From the IMG/VR virus record IMGVR_UViG_3300006737_000153, positions 1-27,178 of that record: DNA of 27,178 nt. The stretch is one strand, 5' to 3'. Shown here piece after piece: positions 1,174-22,565 of this stretch. The DNA comes from a virus. Positions within the stretch are counted from its first letter, which is position 1. Every line of letters begins with the position of its first letter. Made by a program: the position numbers and the translations under genes. Below the pieces are notes generated by a model. That model was not told the DNA's origin. It worked only from the letters and a program-made list of their open reading frames with translations, and did not search any database.

Positions 1174-1494
1174 ATGGCAAGTTATGACGGTAATTTTACC
1201 TTAGATCCATCAATCATCAACACTAAAGAAGAACTCGAAGACCGCCTCAAGGCGGTCATCTGGGACTGGCAGATTGATGGTGATGAAGTACAATCAAAAG
1301 CAAATCTCGACTTACTGAGATCTGCTGAAGTATGTTATCAAGCACTACGTGTGCAATATTGTGGAATAGGACAAAGTACTCCTACTGCACCTAATTACGA
1401 TAAAAATAGATTAGAAGAAATTCTAGTGTTATGGAATAAGTATGCACCTAAGAAATATCAGGAGACTTTAAATTTACCTAGAGTCTCTAGTTAA
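1174..1494 (+). CDS. Hypothetical protein, 106 aa
   Basis: A clear Shine-Dalgarno (GGAGG at 1160-1164) lies 9 bases before the ATG, which supports this start. The product is soluble and mixed alpha/beta, with no membrane segment and no motif I recognise. A possible helix spans about residues 17-58 (EELEDRLKAVIWDW onward, then LLRSAEVCYQALRVQY). It follows the preceding virion gene by 26 bases and so probably shares its late transcript. Its last 21 bases overlap the end of the convergent gene on the other strand (1474-2016). Function unknown. Confidence 0.75.
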   Translation: MASYDGNFTLDPSIINTKEELEDRLKAVIWDWQIDGDEVQSKANLDLLRSAEVCYQALRVQYCGIGQSTPTAPNYDKNRLEEILVLWNKYAPKKYQETLNLPRVSS

Positions 1495-2016
1495 TTTCCA
1501 TGCTACAGATATTCTCATACCTTGAAAATGTCTTGTAGTTGACTCAGCATAGTGAAACATCTTTGCTGGAAAATAGGAAACTGTATTTGGGCGTGGTAGC
1601 ACATAGTGCAAATCATCTCTATTCATATAGAAGACGGTCTTACCACCCCAAGAAGGATTCCACTTTTTAATATCTCTTCCAATTAGGTTTGAATATAATA
1701 ACAACGTAAAGTCCTCATCGAGATCACTATCTTGGTGAGGACTTCCTTGTGTCCCGAAGATGTGCCCATTAGCATATACATCATTCAGGATAAATTTTTG
1801 TTTTAGTTTTTCTTGTATTATGTTAAGACAGTACTCAGTAAAGAACTTCTCATCCTTTAAAGGCATTGTAAAAAATGGAGCACATGGTTCACCAGGATTT
1901 GATATATTACCATATCCCCATTGAGGTCTCCTACAAAAATTGTTTATCTTTATAAAGTCTTCGCCAGAAAAAAATTCTTCAAATGTTAGTACGTCATCTC
2001 GTGACCATGTTTTCAT
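1474..2016 (-). CDS. 2-oxoglutarate/Fe(II)-dependent oxygenase (prolyl-hydroxylase-like)
   Basis: The 180-aa product carries the jelly-roll dioxygenase signature: an HxD pair in SPHQDSD (His94, Asp96), a WGGKTVFY strand at 123-130, a distal histidine in FHYAE (His155) and the 2OG-binding arginine in MRISVAWK (Arg168). Order and spacing fit small prolyl-4-hydroxylase-like enzymes common in cyanomyoviruses. Such enzymes hydroxylate a protein side chain or small molecule using O2 and 2-oxoglutarate, releasing succinate and CO2; the substrate here is unknown. It is the last gene of a four-gene leftward cassette, and its start overlaps the stop of the preceding gene by 4 bases (ATGA). All four ligands being intact suggests an active enzyme. 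Confidence 0.8.
   Translation of the reverse strand: MKTWSRDDVLTFEEFFSGEDFIKINNFCRRPQWGYGNISNPGEPCAPFFTMPLKDEKFFTEYCLNIIQEKLKQKFILNDVYANGHIFGTQGSPHQDSDLDEDFTLLLYSNLIGRDIKKWNPSWGGKTVFYMNRDDLHYVLPRPNTVSYFPAKMFHYAESTTRHFQGMRISVAWKLTRDSR
1478..1490. repeat. 13-bp perfect palindrome in a convergent gene overlap
   Basis: CTAGAGTCTCTAG is palindromic around a central T. It sits inside the 21-bp overlap of the two convergent genes. A second pairing, GAGACT (1462-1467) with AGTCTC (1482-1487), is an alternative fold. Either could act as a weak bidirectional terminator, but no T-tract follows on either strand, so the role is only a guess. Confidence 0.3.
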
Positions 2017-2924
2017 TCTATTACAGCAACTAGTGAGTATCTTGCGTCTTGTTCATCCTGAGCAGCATAACTTGCAGTGTGCCATCTATTGCCTCTGTAG
2101 AAAGACAAAGTATTAAATGATGATGGTAGGTGTAGATATCCTTCATAATAATCATCACCCTTAAATAGTGGCCAAGGTTCTTTTCCTACTGTACAGTGAG
2201 ATAACTTTCCAATAGCATTAGAGTCCGTGAATGTAGTTGATTCTTCATTGTAACCATACCTTTCTACAAGGTTATCCATATACCTTCTTGCTACACCATT
2301 CTTTTTAGATGTAGGGGATGTTATCTCGCTCATATTATAATAATATTTGTCTGTTTCTGTGTCCTTAACTCTAAAGAATGTTGTACCTGCATTTGGATGA
2401 TCAGTTAAAAAGAAATTAGCAGCATATGAAAATGGATCCATATGTGGTAGGTAGTTTCTATTCCACGAAACCATTCCTGGATAAAAACAATTAGTAAAGT
2501 ATTTCCAGTTTATAGATCTGTAATTATACTTGATGAAGTTTAATTGATTAGCAACCAAGTTAAACAATTGATTACCTAGTGCTGGCATCAGTTGTCTTTC
2601 TATTGGTTGCTGTAAACCTGGTGCTCTACTATTACTAAACGATGCCCCACCATTGTTTATGAGTGCTTGCATTGCACTCATATTTCTATCCTCTGCAGGG
2701 AAGTGCATTAAAAACTCTCTAAGTTCAAGAGGACGTTTTAGAACATTCTCCACATAACAGTATCTCGTACCATACTCATCACCTAGATGAACATCCATCT
2801 CATCTATGTGATTGAACTCACACATATCAACCAACTTATTAAAAGAGTAAGTTGGTAACTCACTCTTTTGAATTCGTGGTACTTTATATTTGTTCTCTGG
2901 TATATCAGGAGTAAACATCGTCAT
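2013..2924 (-). CDS. Probable 2OG/Fe(II) oxygenase-fold protein, ligands intact (DUF6445-like)
   Basis: This 303-aa protein has a candidate metal triad: HxD in YLPHMDPF (His161, Asp163), a distal His in GNRWHTASY (His282) and an Arg 13 residues later in DARYSLVAV (Arg295). The strand FFLTDHPNAGTTFFR (171-185) fits the jelly roll that follows HxD in this superfamily. It resembles proteins annotated as DUF6445 family; that name is from memory and not searched. It is a clear paralogue of the gene immediately upstream (2905-3801): the two share an N-terminal DN-like segment with PxEL, a PG.QPI-like segment, the FLxDHPN strand and a YSL strand near the C-terminus. Met3 is an alternative start. The first 20 bases overlap the upstream gene. 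Substrate unknown. Confidence 0.65.
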   Translation of the reverse strand: MTMFTPDIPENKYKVPRIQKSELPTYSFNKLVDMCEFNHIDEMDVHLGDEYGTRYCYVENVLKRPLELREFLMHFPAEDRNMSAMQALINNGGASFSNSRAPGLQQPIERQLMPALGNQLFNLVANQLNFIKYNYRSINWKYFTNCFYPGMVSWNRNYLPHMDPFSYAANFFLTDHPNAGTTFFRVKDTETDKYYYNMSEITSPTSKKNGVARRYMDNLVERYGYNEESTTFTDSNAIGKLSHCTVGKEPWPLFKGDDYYEGYLHLPSSFNTLSFYRGNRWHTASYAAQDEQDARYSLVAVIE

Positions 2925-3801
2925 TTTGGAACTCGTTGTTTTCCAACTCGTTACCTTGTTGTTTTTCAGATTTGGGTACTGGGTTCATACCAAGTATTAA
3001 AGAATACAGGTCGTCTCCTCCACCATAGTTTAAACATCTAAAGGTATGACCTTTAAATAAAATTAATCGATTCTTTTTAACTTCTACAGTTCTAGTTTTA
3101 ATGAAATGTTCACTCTCTTTGAATGCTTCATAAACTTTACTTTCTTCTTTAGCAGTTGCATTATCATTTAACCACTCGGCAATATCCTGTACTACTTGTG
3201 GATCCTCAGTCATTATATCTTCAGCATTGGAATAGTATTTTCCTTTCCACTCAAAATTATACAGATTGAATTCAGAATTAGGATGGTCTTCTAAGAATAA
3301 CATCCCACCATGTTCCCATTGAGTAAATGAAGGAATGTCTGAACCTACGTTACAGATAGTACCGTCAAACATTAAGTTTCCAACTGTAGAAGAGTATTCT
3401 GGTAGTTGGGAAATAAATTTTTTCATTTGCTCCCCTTCCATGTTAACCATAGAATCAGCAGGTACAAACTCTGTATCAACTAATGCCTTGTACATACCAA
3501 ACAGTAGTGGTGTGAGATATGGTTGTGGGATTAATTGATTTACACCTGGTTCCTTAAGTCCAAATGGAAATTTACCAACTTCTGAATGGGATGCTTCTGC
3601 AACTTTTTCTAGATAATCACCAGGCACACTAAGTAGTGCATCCAATAGTTCTTCTGGAAACTGCATGAAGTTATCAATTACAGCATAATCACCATAGTCA
3701 TCTATACCATCATCTACGTCATGATTAGGTGATGATACTTTTTCCCAGTTGACTTCATTAATCCTCTCTCTGAGAGAGGACTTCATTTCAAAATCACTCA
3801 T
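2905..3801 (-). CDS. Degenerate paralogue of the adjacent oxygenase-fold protein (probable pseudoenzyme)
   Basis: The product is 298 aa from the chosen start at 3801 (MSDFEMKS). A longer start at 3816 adds five residues but has no Shine-Dalgarno. It aligns over its length with the neighbouring 2013-2924 protein: FMQFPEELLDALL against VLKRPLELREFLM, LKEPGVNQLI against SRAPGLQQPI, and LFLEDHPN against FFLTDHPN. At the ligand positions it differs: the HxD pair becomes SFT (Ser158, Thr160), the distal His becomes Arg255 (KGHTFRCLNY) and the 2OG Arg becomes Leu265 (DDLYSLIL). The fold appears kept and the catalytic centre lost. It could be a regulatory or structural partner of its active neighbour. 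The acidic, Asn-rich C-terminal tail of about 25 residues is extra. It overlaps the upstream gene's stop by 8 bases. Confidence 0.65.
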   Translation of the reverse strand: MSDFEMKSSLRERINEVNWEKVSSPNHDVDDGIDDYGDYAVIDNFMQFPEELLDALLSVPGDYLEKVAEASHSEVGKFPFGLKEPGVNQLIPQPYLTPLLFGMYKALVDTEFVPADSMVNMEGEQMKKFISQLPEYSSTVGNLMFDGTICNVGSDIPSFTQWEHGGMLFLEDHPNSEFNLYNFEWKGKYYSNAEDIMTEDPQVVQDIAEWLNDNATAKEESKVYEAFKESEHFIKTRTVEVKKNRLILFKGHTFRCLNYGGGDDLYSLILGMNPVPKSEKQQGNELENNEFQNDDVYS

Positions 3802-4264
3802 CTTTAACACCACCATCTAGAGGGGTCTTAGTAACACTTTCAATATTCATCATGCTATCTTTTGCTTGTCCAGAGAAAGGACTATCACCCATAGATGTGG
3901 TTACATGAGTTCTTGCTGTGTCTACATCTACCTTATTCAAGTTGTATTCTTCCCAGTTAGCAATTGTATTAACGTATAATTCTTCTAATGATCCATGAAC
4001 TTTGTAGATAACTCTACAGAAATCACGTTCTACTTGGAACTCTCTTTCACTTGCTAATGGACACCAAGGTACGAAGTCAACTTTAGCATCGTTAGCTTCG
4101 CCACCTTCAACTTCAGTATCTGCTGGTTGACTATAGTCAAGGTTAAGTGTAAATGGATTAGTTAGTTTATATCCTAATGATTTGTTTTCTTGAGGATCTA
4201 TTACTTCCTGAACATCTGTTATTATAGTTTCTCCTGTTTCTAGGATCACTGCTTGAATACTCAT
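3794..4264 (-). CDS. Hypothetical protein with Sm-like beta-barrel pattern, 156 aa
   Basis: First gene of the leftward cassette, starting about 15 bases after the predicted start of a host-type promoter. The N-terminal half reads as short strands: QAVILETGETIITDVQEV, then YKLTNPFTLNLDY. This is the pattern 'hydrophobic-strand, [ST]GE, strand, then a -NP- or -DP- turn' seen in small phage proteins with a predicted LSm/Hfq-like fold. The same pattern occurs in the 24485-24904 protein (VKLISGEELLTKV, then IFHDPMLVEHV). The C-terminal half is acidic and probably disordered. An RNA-binding role would be a guess from fold alone. No enzyme motif or membrane segment is visible. Confidence 0.6.
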   Translation of the reverse strand: MSIQAVILETGETIITDVQEVIDPQENKSLGYKLTNPFTLNLDYSQPADTEVEGGEANDAKVDFVPWCPLASEREFQVERDFCRVIYKVHGSLEELYVNTIANWEEYNLNKVDVDTARTHVTTSMGDSPFSGQAKDSMMNIESVTKTPLDGGVKDE

Positions 4265-4285: not shown

Positions 4286-4314
4286 ATTGTACAGTATAAA
4301 CCGAATCCTGTCAA
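4286..4314 (-). promoter_or_regulatory. Host sigma70-type promoter for the leftward cassette
   Basis: Read on the minus strand, a perfect -35 TTGACA (4314-4309) is followed after exactly 17 bp by TACAAT (4291-4286), five of six matches to the -10 consensus. Transcription would start near 4279, giving a leader of about 15 bases before the ATG at 4264. This suggests early transcription by unmodified host polymerase. Confidence 0.75.
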
Positions 4315-4358: not shown

Positions 4359-4775
4359 ATGACTGATAATACGGAAATCCGATCAATGACTCCAGAGGAG
4401 AAATTCTTTGTGAGAGGAGGAGATAATGCTACTGTAGTACCTGTAAATAACCGTGAAGGTATGGGCAAAGCATTAGATGAGTTGCCTCTATTTGAGATCG
4501 TTCAAGAAGTTGAAGCAAAGTGGGATCCATTAAAATATCATATGGTTATTGATGCTTGTTTGATAGCAGATACAGAACAAGATGCGTATGAGTTGGGTCA
4601 GTTATCAGATAACCAGTTGCTACAAGATAGAATTCCTGAAGGACCAGGTGGTGGTATTGGATGGCGTTGTGAGTTTGGTGGTACAGAAGATGCACCAAAG
4701 AATATAAAGTTTTTTGATAACATTGCTGCAGCAAGACATTGGTTCCTTAATGAAGTAACAGAAGAAGATAGCTAA
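4359..4775 (+). CDS. Hypothetical protein, 138 aa
   Basis: An acidic soluble protein with no membrane segment. A central segment, WDPLKYHMVIDACLIADT, may be a strand-helix pair; GPGGGIGWRCEFGG (about residues 96-109) is a glycine-rich loop before a C-terminal helix. I recognise no family. A late box lies upstream (4318-4325), and its own stop codon is built into the late box that precedes gp13, so it is probably co-expressed with virion genes. It could be a minor virion or assembly protein, but nothing in the sequence shows this. Confidence 0.7.
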   Translation: MTDNTEIRSMTPEEKFFVRGGDNATVVPVNNREGMGKALDELPLFEIVQEVEAKWDPLKYHMVIDACLIADTEQDAYELGQLSDNQLLQDRIPEGPGGGIGWRCEFGGTEDAPKNIKFFDNIAAARHWFLNEVTEEDS

Positions 4776-8279: not shown

Positions 8280-8861
8280 ATGGTTTCTATTAATACTATG
8301 TACTGTGAAAAAAGATTACCTGTTTTCACATCGAAATTACCAGACTACGAAAATTACAACAAACACATGCTTGATTTAATTAAGCAGTATAGAGAGAAAT
8401 TTCCAGAAAAAGAAACACATACAAATTTAAGAGCATGGAGAAGTCAGTATGATGCTCACATAAAAGAAGAGAGGTTTGAACATCTCATAGATAAGTGCTG
8501 TGATTTTGCAACCTTTGTTAGTAAACATATGTGGGATGCAGATTTAGTATATCTACCATCTGCAATGTGGGTGGGTCAATATGATAAAGGTGAGTATGCT
8601 AGAAAGCACCACCATGCACCAGCAGATTGGGCAGTTGTTTATTACATTGATGTCGATGAGAATTCATCTCCTATAGTATTTGAAGATGAACTAATAGTAA
8701 AACCAGAAAACGGAATGATTGTTATGTTTCCTGGTGATTTGAATCATAGGGTAGAACCAACTAATTCACCAAGAACAATTGCTGCTATGAACTTAGTAAA
8801 AAAACTAGATATAATAGAAATAGAATACACCCCAAATAAAGATGGCATATCAAAGGAATGA
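8280..8861 (+). CDS. 2OG/Fe(II) oxygenase-like protein
   Basis: The 193-aa protein has the C-terminal jelly-roll signature of the phage-type 2OG-Fe(II) oxygenase family that uses an HxH-like first motif: KHHHAPADWAVVYYIDV (His110 and His112), a VFED strand, MVMFPGDLNHRVEP-like strand with His156, and SPRTIAAMNL with Arg165. I read IVMFPGDLNHRVEP and a conserved NL end as typical. Substrate unknown; host or virion protein modification is possible. It begins 2 bases after gp16 stops and so opens the island separating the terminase genes. The last 20 bases overlap the next gene. Confidence 0.75.
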   Translation: MVSINTMYCEKRLPVFTSKLPDYENYNKHMLDLIKQYREKFPEKETHTNLRAWRSQYDAHIKEERFEHLIDKCCDFATFVSKHMWDADLVYLPSAMWVGQYDKGEYARKHHHAPADWAVVYYIDVDENSSPIVFEDELIVKPENGMIVMFPGDLNHRVEPTNSPRTIAAMNLVKKLDIIEIEYTPNKDGISKE

Positions 8862-13154: not shown

Positions 13155-15593
13155 ATGGCAAGTCAAATCTCGCCTGGTGTTATCGTCAAGGAAAGAGACC
13201 TGACAACTGGAACAGTTGTAAACTCAGCAGCAACTACTGCTTCTGTAGTTTCTACATTTCAGAAAGGTCCAGTTGGCGAAATCACCACGATCTCTTCACA
13301 AAGAGAATTAGTAGATACATTTGGTAGTCCAGGAGACTCAAACGCAGACGACTTTTTTGTCGCATCTGAGTTTCTAAACTATGGTGGTCGTCTTGGTGTT
13401 GTTCGTGCAGACACAGGAGCAGTTAATGCTGGTGCTGCAGCGATCATCAGAAATAAGACAGACTACGAATCAAGAATTGAGCAAACCACACCTGCATGGA
13501 AGTGGGCTGCTAGAACACCAGGTATCTGGGGTAATGACTTTGACGTTGTTATCGCTGACCGAGGTGCTGACCAATATGTTATATTCGGTTCTGCACCAGC
13601 TAACGTTGTTGCTGGAACAGATCTAACCTTCTCTTCTGGTGCTAAAGCAGAAGTTCTTTCTTATGATGCTGCAACACTTACTGCAGCTGTTATCTTAGAT
13701 ACACCTACATCTCGTCTGACTGCTACTGATACCCTTGATACTCCCGATGAGGGTCAAATAACTGGTACTGCCGTTGCTAACGCTGGTTCTGGATATACAT
13801 CAGGAACAGGACTTGCAGTTACAGGTGGTACAGGAACTGGTGCTACTGTAGATATTACAGTTGCAGTTGGTGTACCTGCTACAGTTACTATCACATCTGG
13901 TGGTTCAACATACGGTGCTACTGGTACTAATGTCGCTACTACAGGTGGTACTGGTACTGGATTAACTGTTGACTTTACTTCTACAGGTGGTGTTGTTGAC
14001 GGTGTAGTAATCAATACTGCTGGTACTGGTTATACAGTTGGTAACACAATCACCATTACAGGTGGTGGTAACAACGCAACTTTCTCAATCGCTTCTGTTA
14101 ACGGTGTAATCACTGCGGTTTCTATAGCATCTGCAGGTACTGGTTACAGCACTTCTGATACAGTTGGTATTGTACAGTCTGGTGGATCAGGTGGTACATT
14201 CACAGTTAACACTGTTGCAGACTCAACAATCTCATTAACAGTTGCAGACTGGTGGACAAACACAAACACAGACGGTACTAAGACAGCGACTGACGATGGT
14301 AAGATTACACTATCTGCTATTGGTCCTCGTCCTGGTACTTCACAATTTGCTGCTAACCTAGGATTAGGTTATGACGAAGTTCACGTTGGTGTTATTGAAA
14401 GATCAACAAAGACTGTGGTAGAAAGAATACAGTATCTTTCTAAGTTTACTGATGGTGTATCTGCTGAAGGTGCTTCTGCTTACTATCCAACGATTGTAAA
14501 AGAAGCTTCAAACTTTGTTTACTTTGGTTCACACATCGCTAGTGGATCTACTCACTATCCTACAACTGCTGGTGCTGGACTTGGTATCGGTACTGCTGCT
14601 ACTGCTGGTACATCTGGACAGAAGATGGCGGTTATCGGTGTTTACCAAGTTTCATTGACTGGTGGTACAGATGACTATGCATATACAGTTGCTGAGTTTT
14701 CTGAAGGTCTAGAACTATTCAACGATAAAGAAACTGTTGATGTAGACTACATCCTTATGGGTGGTTCAATGTCTACTGAGTCAGATACTAAGTTAAAGGC
14801 TGCTGCATGTATTACTACTGCTAACCTCAGAAAAGATGCTGTTGCATTCGTTTCTGCACACAAGGGTAACCAAGTGTCTGGTACAGTAGCACTTACAAGA
14901 GCTGCACAAAAAGATAACACAATCAACTTCTTTAGTTCATTGAGTTCTTCTTCATACGCAGTCTTTGATAGTGGTTATAAGTACTTCTATGATCGCTTTA
15001 ACGATTCATATCGTTACGTTCCTTGCAACGGAGACATCGCTGGTCTATGTGTAGCAACATCTACTACACTTGACGACTGGTTCTCACCTGCTGGACTATC
15101 ACGTGGTGGAGTTCGTAACGCTATTAAGTTAGCATACAACCCAACTCAATCAGATAGAGACGAACTATATCAGAACAGAATCAACCCAGTTGTTTCCTTC
15201 CCTGGTCAAGGTATCACACTATTTGGTGATAAGACTGCATTATCCTCACCTTCTGCATTTGATAGAATCAATGTTAGAAGACTCTTCATCAATATTGAAG
15301 ACAGAGCAGAGGCACTTGCTAAGGCAGTTATCTTTGAGCAAAACGATGATACCACAAGACTTGGGTTTAGTAATGCTCTATCTTCTTACCTCGCAGAGGT
15401 ACAGTCAAGAAGGGGTATCACTGACTTCCAAGTTGTATGTGATACAACAAACAACACACCTAGTGTTATTGATCGTAATGAATTTGTTGCTGAAGTTTAT
15501 GTTAAACCAACACGTTCTATTAACTACATTACATTATCATTCGTTGCTACAAGAACTGGAGTTTCCTTCAGTGAAGTTGTAGGACGCTCGTAA
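13155..15593 (+). CDS. 18: Tail sheath protein gp18 with inserted beta-repeat domain
   Basis: The N-terminus SQISPGVIVKERDLTTGT and the C-terminal domain (residues about 630-812, with RAEALAKAVIFEQNDDTTR and LSFVATRTGVSFSEV) are typical of T4-type contractile sheath proteins; the C-terminal strands interlock subunits in the sheath. At 812 aa it exceeds T4 gp18 (about 659). The extra length falls in residues about 205-355, a set of four Gly/Thr-rich beta repeats with TGY or SGY turns. In T4 this part of the chain corresponds to the outward-facing protease-resistant domains, so the insert should decorate the tail surface. A late box and strong Shine-Dalgarno precede it, as expected for an abundant protein. 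Confidence 0.95.
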   Translation: MASQISPGVIVKERDLTTGTVVNSAATTASVVSTFQKGPVGEITTISSQRELVDTFGSPGDSNADDFFVASEFLNYGGRLGVVRADTGAVNAGAAAIIRNKTDYESRIEQTTPAWKWAARTPGIWGNDFDVVIADRGADQYVIFGSAPANVVAGTDLTFSSGAKAEVLSYDAATLTAAVILDTPTSRLTATDTLDTPDEGQITGTAVANAGSGYTSGTGLAVTGGTGTGATVDITVAVGVPATVTITSGGSTYGATGTNVATTGGTGTGLTVDFTSTGGVVDGVVINTAGTGYTVGNTITITGGGNNATFSIASVNGVITAVSIASAGTGYSTSDTVGIVQSGGSGGTFTVNTVADSTISLTVADWWTNTNTDGTKTATDDGKITLSAIGPRPGTSQFAANLGLGYDEVHVGVIERSTKTVVERIQYLSKFTDGVSAEGASAYYPTIVKEASNFVYFGSHIASGSTHYPTTAGAGLGIGTAATAGTSGQKMAVIGVYQVSLTGGTDDYAYTVAEFSEGLELFNDKETVDVDYILMGGSMSTESDTKLKAAACITTANLRKDAVAFVSAHKGNQVSGTVALTRAAQKDNTINFFSSLSSSSYAVFDSGYKYFYDRFNDSYRYVPCNGDIAGLCVATSTTLDDWFSPAGLSRGGVRNAIKLAYNPTQSDRDELYQNRINPVVSFPGQGITLFGDKTALSSPSAFDRINVRRLFINIEDRAEALAKAVIFEQNDDTTRLGFSNALSSYLAEVQSRRGITDFQVVCDTTNNTPSVIDRNEFVAEVYVKPTRSINYITLSFVATRTGVSFSEVVGRS
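13767..14219 (+). repeat. Four Gly/Thr-rich beta repeats inside gp18
   Basis: Units centred on NAGSGYTSG, TSGGSTYGAT, NTAGTGYTVG and ASAGTGYSTS recur every 36-40 residues, each followed by a GGTGTGATVD-like or GGGNNATFSI-like strand. The DNA is built from GGTACTGG/ACAGGTGG-type words, which also creates a long false ORF on the other strand. Confidence 0.8.
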
Positions 15594-15625: not shown

Positions 15626-16237
15626 ATGGCTATTAACTCAAACGTATCTGAGTTTCTGCAGAAGATCAAACAGGGTGTTAAACCCAATATGTTCTTGGTC
15701 AACATCGCTTTCCCTGGCACTCTTGCTAAGGGAAACAGCGATACAGACCTTACAAATATACTTTGTAAATCTGCAGCACTCCCTGCATCTAACTTAGGTG
15801 TAATAGAAGTCCCATTCAGAGGACGCTCAGTAAAGATCTCAGGTGATCGCACCTTTGATACATGGACTGCAACTTTTGTTAACGATGAAGACATGAGAAT
15901 TCGTGCATTCTTCGAGCAATGGTCTGCATACATCAATTCACATGATGGTAACACATCTACTCTGTTCAAACCAGAAACATCTGGTTCTGGATACATGGCT
16001 ACTTTAGAAGTAAACCAGTTAGAGAAAGATGCAACCACACAAGGTAATGTAATTAGAAAGTACAAACTCTTCCACGCATTCCCAAGTTCAATCTCTCAAA
16101 TCGATCTTGCTTATGATAGTAACGATCAGGTTTCTGAGTTCACAGTTGAATTCCAACTATCTTATTGGACTGCAGAATCTGGAGCAGCAGCTGGATCAAA
16201 TCCACCTGACACAACACCAGTTCTTGCCACTGTATAA
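15626..16237 (+). CDS. 19: Tail tube protein gp19
   Basis: The 203-aa product (T4 gp19 about 163) follows gp18, as in T4. It shows the tube fold: an N-terminal region (VKPNMFLVNIAFPGTL), then LCKSAALPASNLGVIEVPFRG followed by RTFDTWTATFVNDEDMRIR, the pattern 'CxSA.lP...vG.i.vpf.G' and 'DL/W.v.F..DE/ed' shared by tail tube proteins. It stacks as hexameric rings to make the inner DNA conduit inside the gp18 sheath. A strong AGGAAGG Shine-Dalgarno precedes the ATG. Its TAA stop is part of a perfect late promoter box for gp20. It is distantly similar in pattern to the gp3 protein at 22044-22565. Confidence 0.92.
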   Translation: MAINSNVSEFLQKIKQGVKPNMFLVNIAFPGTLAKGNSDTDLTNILCKSAALPASNLGVIEVPFRGRSVKISGDRTFDTWTATFVNDEDMRIRAFFEQWSAYINSHDGNTSTLFKPETSGSGYMATLEVNQLEKDATTQGNVIRKYKLFHAFPSSISQIDLAYDSNDQVSEFTVEFQLSYWTAESGAAAGSNPPDTTPVLATV

Positions 16238-22043: not shown

Positions 22044-22565
22044 GTGGCCTCTGAATGGTATAACGAGCAGTTATCAAATAGAAATTATCTTTCACCTCTT
22101 GGTTTTCAATTAGAACTTGAAAACTTTAAAGGGGTGGATTTCTTTTGTCAGTCTGCAAATATACCAGACATGGCGATGCCTGTAACTGAAGTCCCATCTA
22201 GATTTCGTAATGTGCCCATAGTACCTGGCGGTGGAGTTACCTTTGGTGATTTCCAAGTATCCTTTATTGTTGATGAAGGACTTACTAACCTCCTTTCGGT
22301 GCAGAAATGGATTCGAGCAAATGGTAATGATGGTTCTAAACCAGAAAATGTACCAGCAGAACCACAGTACAGCAGAGGGCAACTGATAGTTACCACATCA
22401 AACTTTGCTACAAACTTCGTTGTTAATTTTACAGGACTATTTCCTATCAGTGTAACTGGTCTTAACTTCGATGCTACATTAAGTGATCAACAATACTTAA
22501 CTGCTACTGCAGTCTTTAAGTATCATTCCTATAGTATAACTGACTCATCATTAAATGAACTTTGA
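22044..22565 (+). CDS. 3: Tail completion and sheath stabilizer gp3 (tube-fold protein)
   Basis: At 173 aa this matches T4 gp3 (176), and in cyanomyoviruses gp3 lies after gp23. The sequence NYLSPLGFQLELENFKGVDF, then FFCQSANIPDM, VPIVPGGGVTFGDFQVSFIVDE and LLSVQKWIRANG, follows the tail-tube fold shared by gp19-like proteins, consistent with a ring capping the tube end. The start is GTG, with a weak GGGAAG Shine-Dalgarno; no ATG fits better. A late box precedes it. It overlaps uvsY by 11 bases, so a late virion gene is linked to recombination genes. A tube initiator (gp54-like) is the alternative call. Confidence 0.78.
   Translation: MASEWYNEQLSNRNYLSPLGFQLELENFKGVDFFCQSANIPDMAMPVTEVPSRFRNVPIVPGGGVTFGDFQVSFIVDEGLTNLLSVQKWIRANGNDGSKPENVPAEPQYSRGQLIVTTSNFATNFVVNFTGLFPISVTGLNFDATLSDQQYLTATAVFKYHSYSITDSSLNEL

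Follow-up and report, generated by a model that had tools for sequence, protein, structure and literature searches.

A candidate enzyme-pseudoenzyme pair of DUF6445 oxygenase-like proteins in an antisense cassette of marine T4-like phages

Why would a virus keep, side by side, an oxygenase-like gene with a complete set of catalytic ligands and a homolog of that gene in which all of those ligands have been replaced? The question is raised by IMGVR_UViG_3300006737_000153, an IMG/VR virus record of 27,178 nt that was analyzed here from position 1 to 27,178 (the window). The window carries T4-like head and tail genes (terminase, tail sheath, tail tube, portal, head protease and major head protein), and its portal and neck protein have their nearest named relatives in cyanophages, at 75% and 65% identity, respectively. 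A search for psbA, as a basis for assigning a cyanobacterial host, found none in 14 records, most of them fragments.

Results

Gene layout of the cassette

Four overlapping genes, here called D, C, B and A, lie on the minus strand of the window behind a sigma70-type promoter:

4286..4314, minus strand: sigma70-type promoter ahead of D, TTGACA-17-TACAAT, 11/12 matches, 21 nt before the D start codon
3794..4264, minus strand: D, small protein of 156 aa, first gene of the cassette (phrog_431, E 1e-23; weak match to DUF6561)
2905..3816, minus strand: C, 303 aa as called, pseudo-oxygenase paralog homologous to B
2013..2924, minus strand: B, 303 aa, DUF6445 oxygenase-like with a complete HxD...H...R
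1474..2016, minus strand: A, intact 2OG-Fe(II) oxygenase-like cassette accessory (PF13640, E 8e-4, below cutoff; phrog_274, E 7e-29)

The first-pass annotation of this DNA placed the start of C at 3801, which is probably right since the ortholog in a relative (L002) begins at MSDFE. Gene A, present in only part of the clades, reads as HxD...H...R and its PF13640 match is weak; the PHROG 274 label "DNA endonuclease V" looks wrong for such a 2OG-Fe(II) oxygenase-like protein.

Several other genes of the window deserve mention. A further 2OG-Fe(II) oxygenase (PF13759) is encoded at 8280-8861 (plus strand), downstream of the neck and sheath-stabilizer genes, and the first 9 kb hold four oxygenase-type genes in all. 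The 812-aa tail sheath protein (13155-15593, plus strand) has an internal stretch, at about residues 200-346, that resembles other virion structural proteins. Two genes, at 15626-16237 and 22044-22565 (both plus strand), match the phrog_45 tail tube family, the second apparently being a tail tube paralog that follows the major head gene.

B and C are homologous members of an oxygenase-like family

The first-pass annotation described B and C as tandem paralogs that align along their length, and their homology was confirmed by blastp without composition correction (23% identity over 233 columns, E = 4e-6), by shuffling (best local score of 89 against a shuffled mean of 35, s.d. 5.4, z = 9.8) and by profile-profile comparison (probability 98.6%, E = 6e-16, 206 columns). 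The profile search that it had proposed places B in Pfam DUF6445 (PF20043) with 29.2 bits, above the curated cutoff of 24, and the window C under that cutoff with 19.6 bits; the C protein of one relative (L110) scores 24.6. A sequence search of the PDB gave nothing useful, and no mention of DUF6445 was found in the literature searched. B also matches phrog_1644, a family labeled "minor coat protein". This label is doubtful for DUF6445 proteins, and to read B or C by it alone may mislead; B carries oxygenase ligands and its operon runs antisense to the virion genes from a host-type promoter.

Structure prediction, likewise proposed at the outset, found both proteins to resemble 2OG-oxygenase folds, C more clearly than B. 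Foldseek searches of the PDB were run with AlphaFold single-chain models (pLDDT 80 for C and 70, a low confidence, for B). Most structures returned for C are 2OG oxygenases (E from 1e-4, probability 1.00, TM at most ~0.5), while B matches 2OG oxygenases weakly, owing to the poor quality of its model. With TM-scores this low, B is assigned to the fold chiefly by its conserved motif and its family. The matches include proteins of the OGFOD1/Tpa1/Ofd1 type at a sequence identity of ~10%. The core strands of the B and C models correspond in order, and the HxD triplet of B and the SFT triplet of C each begin six residues before a strand, at 167 and 169, respectively. The distal ligand position falls within strand 281-285 of B and 258-263 of C, while the Arg of B and the Leu of C each begin a strand (295-302 and 270-277).

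The metal site is complete in B and lost in C

The ligand positions of the window proteins are as follows, those of C being alignment columns:

2436..2444, minus strand: B His161-x-Asp163, metal motif, invariant in 35 B proteins and in the cellular DUF6445 proteins and phage homologs examined
2079..2081, minus strand: B His282, distal His, invariant in 35 B proteins
2040..2042, minus strand: B Arg295, expected 2OG carboxylate ligand, invariant in 35 B proteins
3322..3330, minus strand: C Ser163-Phe-Thr165 in place of HxD, lying before the matching strand in the model
3037..3039, minus strand: C Arg260 in place of the distal metal His
3007..3009, minus strand: C Leu270 in place of the 2OG-binding Arg

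The alignment thus gives H, D, H and R for B against S, T, R and L for C, exactly as the first-pass annotation had read them. All four ligands are kept in 35/35 distinct B-type proteins, in two cellular DUF6445 proteins and in 4/5 other phage homologs, the exception being ACG-2014d gp199, whose Arg is missing in the alignment used. The claim that C has lost all four holds for the window and for some other clades, but elsewhere one ligand, and in a single case two, survives: the 31 distinct C-type proteins retain none (14 proteins), one (16) or two (1). Which ligand remains differs, with the Asp found in L010/L011, the distal His in L014/L015, the Arg in L016, L018-L023, L105 and L113, and the first His in L105, L106, L110, L118 and L121; ligand equivalence in the distant C proteins was taken from sequence alignment. 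None of the 31 has the HxD motif, and a complete HxD/E...H plus Arg set occurs in no C. The FLxDHPN string, put forward earlier as a fold motif of the pair, proved to be a feature of the window's clade; DHPN is absent from B and C outside it and was rejected as a family motif.

The four old ligand columns, invariant in B, lie between the 70th and 99th percentile of variability in C, and this variability is what a loss of catalysis with later independent drift at the former metal site should leave behind. C could instead be an enzyme whose active site has been rebuilt for another reaction, given its strong overall conservation and its conserved Asp48, Asp67, Asp205, Asn249, Arg250 and Tyr264. 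However, no His or Cys is found among the C columns conserved at 90% or more, and variability at the former metal columns is comparatively high, so that we regard a rebuilt enzyme as very improbable.

C is ancient and under purifying selection

A tree computed without the ligand columns groups the C proteins in a single clade (SH-aLRT 99) whose inner branching largely mirrors that of B, as judged by a quick tree method with an uncertain root and several long branches. A check for purifying selection on the degenerate copy, suggested by the first-pass annotation, found C to be constrained about as strongly as B. Nei-Gojobori dN/dS values for close pairs range from 0.13 to 0.71 for C and from 0.10 to 0.51 for B, and the two are alike within each pair. 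Between the window and L002, for instance, dN/dS is 0.19 for C and 0.24 for B, the changes in C amounting to 40 at 691 nonsynonymous sites and 47 at 185 synonymous sites. As the values for C are well under 1 and similar to those of B, C is not decaying. The window C, lacking all four ligands, might have been taken for a decaying duplicate or pseudogene, but with a reading frame intact in every full-length relative and a single ancient origin this idea is scarcely credible, and we reject it on grounds of selection and age.

C and B are neighbors at a constant site

Relatives were found by scanning viral contigs with the gp13 neck gene as an anchor together with B and C profiles, which yielded 30 loci with non-identical C-B pairs on contigs that are mostly fragments. 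When B and C were compared directly with 50,697 phage records by tblastn, nothing was returned at E 1e-3; at E up to 10, B alone reached cyanophage DUF6445. A genome scan with the B profile recovered no cellular relative, and the cellular DUF6445 proteins were found via a plasmid collection.

The order D-C-B, antisense, is seen in every C-containing contig long enough to cover it, with D preceding C in every relative that covers that position and with the three genes overlapping or nearly abutting. The site is also constant, between a virion structural gene and gp13-gp14-gp15, upstream of gp13, and is kept even in viruses whose gp13 is only ~50% identical to that of the window. The first-pass annotation had asked whether relatives always carry both copies adjacent. 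C and B are indeed adjacent and in the same order in all C-containing relatives, and C without B was not seen among the loci found except at contig ends.

The converse, B without C, is confined to two other lineages (L122-L125 and L126-L128), at other sites beside replication genes, these neighbors being identified by reading translations. The fold therefore does not in general need a partner. In the second of these lineages, B-type genes without C lie between regA and an Hsp20 gene (L126, 409-2250; L128, 4085-4975), and a D-like gene immediately precedes DNA polymerase. S-SSM7_030, Syn9 gp213 and an Asticcacaulis DUF6445 protein resemble B in family and in keeping HxD...H...R, but they are single copies, with no C-type paralog in the neighborhoods examined. 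The third gene next to S-SSM7_030, examined as a possible counterpart of C, is unrelated.

D, C and B diverge together and apparently move as a block

Over 24 loci, pairwise distances correlate at 0.91 for B and C, 0.87 for B and D, and 0.92 for C and D. After removal of gp13/gp14 divergence the values for all three pairs fall within 0.88-0.92, while the correlation of B or C with gp14, given gp13, is ~0. Identities in the flanks and in the cassette disagree. The window and L018 share 84-86% identity in gp13-15, against 35% in B and 24% in C, and the window and L029 share 74-77% against 46% and 38%. L099 and L110 are 85-92% identical in gp13-15, yet only 27% in C, 38% in B and 37% in D. Because of this disagreement, exchange of D-C-B as a block by recombination in the conserved flanks is the simplest reading, and the alleles of D, C and B apparently swap between phages as a matched block. 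Linkage alone could yield part of the co-divergence, with adjacent genes recombining together. Of the three proteins, C has usually diverged furthest.

A plus-strand gene at 4359-4775, divergent from D and without a PHROG match, is 29-31% identical between loci whose gp13 is 86% identical; it thus differs to the same degree as the cassette does and may be part of the block that is exchanged.

These comparisons bear on whether C acts with B at all. C might be a binding protein that stands on its own, with 2OG, a substrate, a host protein or D as its ligand, and works beside B with no complex between them; it has invariant residues of its own that are absent from B (for example, Asp48, Pro119 and Arg250), and it co-diverges with D as closely as with B (0.918 and 0.905). 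Yet C is never found without B and is exchanged together with it as a block, and the short overlaps and gaps between the genes suggest matched production, so we consider a free-standing role fairly unlikely.

A host-type promoter precedes the cassette

Among relatives whose D start is correctly placed, nearly all have a promoter match of 9-12/12 at a distance of 18-25 nt from the D start codon, with a spacing of 17 nt. Some clades have TTGCGA or weaker -10 boxes; their promoters do not score significantly as single sequences, and the support there comes from the constant position. Being host-type and directed antisense to the late genes, the promoter suggests early expression of D-C-B.

A shared operon would also suit a C that inhibits B or regulates its dosage, for example by tying up B or its substrate, as a decoy, for as long as the enzyme is not required, since dead paralogs can regulate their living sisters. 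The data fit inhibition as well as they fit activation, but activation is better documented for 2OG oxygenases (PMC12141560), and an inhibitory C seems distinctly unlikely.

Discussion

The first-pass annotation proposed that C retains a non-catalytic function, perhaps as a substrate receptor or as the partner of B in a heterodimer, and the fold matches, the fixed C-B adjacency and the purifying selection support it. The reading that we favor, with moderate confidence, is an antisense operon of early type, made up of D-C-B and in some clades also of A, that encodes a heteromeric 2OG/Fe(II) oxygenase in which B would be catalytic and C an obligate non-catalytic partner. B, with its complete HxD...H...R site, would be the active subunit. 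C would descend from one ancient duplication of a DUF6445 oxygenase, would have lost the metal site and would have been kept as a partner of B, most likely shaping or supplying the substrate-binding surface of B or activating it. A role of C as the recognition subunit, conferring specificity, would fit the apparent swapping of D, C and B alleles as a matched block and the fact that C is usually the most diverged. More tentatively still, marine T4-like phages might express D-C-B early, as a heteromeric 2OG oxygenase whose specificity subunit is a dead, fast-diverging paralog and whose matched alleles are swapped en bloc. If D-C-B is read correctly, it would be, to our knowledge, the first enzyme-pseudoenzyme oxygenase of this kind from any virus.

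Precedents for a dead paralog that aids a 2OG oxygenase have been described (PMC12141560, PMC11880133, PMC4396695). The fungal Fe(II)/2OG pairs TlxI-TlxJ and TlxC-TlxA resemble C-B in that homologous catalytic and incompetent subunits are encoded in one cluster (PMC12141560, PMC11880133). The incompetent TlxI contributes to substrate binding, the TlxI-TlxJ heterodimer is ~80 times more efficient than TlxJ alone, and TlxI-J was described as the first heterodimer of its enzyme type (PMC12141560); C would stand to B as TlxI does to TlxJ. However, the Tlx pairs are fungal, belong to another 2OG family and act on small molecules, and TlxI lacks the 2OG-binding Arg; their dimer and activity have been demonstrated, whereas those of the phage pair are putative. 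The uS12 prolyl hydroxylases OGFOD1/Tpa1/Ofd1 likewise combine an active DSBH with a DSBH that has no metal site, an arrangement thought to stem from duplication, with a proposed role in recognition (PMC4396695). Unlike B and C, which are two phage genes, these eukaryotic proteins are single fused chains. The trypanosome prozyme and dead deoxyhypusine synthase paralog (PMC5201418, PMC3663545) are catalytically dead paralogs too and activate their living sisters, as is proposed for C, but their folds and organisms are unrelated to C-B and the analogy is one of principle only. If our interpretation holds, the phage pair would work like TlxI-J and OGFOD1/Tpa1, as an analog and not as a demonstrated member.

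Numerous 2OG oxygenases of unknown function are found in marine T4-like phages and, according to one proposal, serve to modulate 2OG levels while infection proceeds (PMC3037559). If real, a conserved enzyme-pseudoenzyme pair would instead point to a specific macromolecular or metabolite substrate with a dedicated recognition subunit. It would provide a bacteriophage counterpart to TlxI-J, and its ~30 diverged matched pairs would form a natural series on the loss of catalysis with partner function kept.
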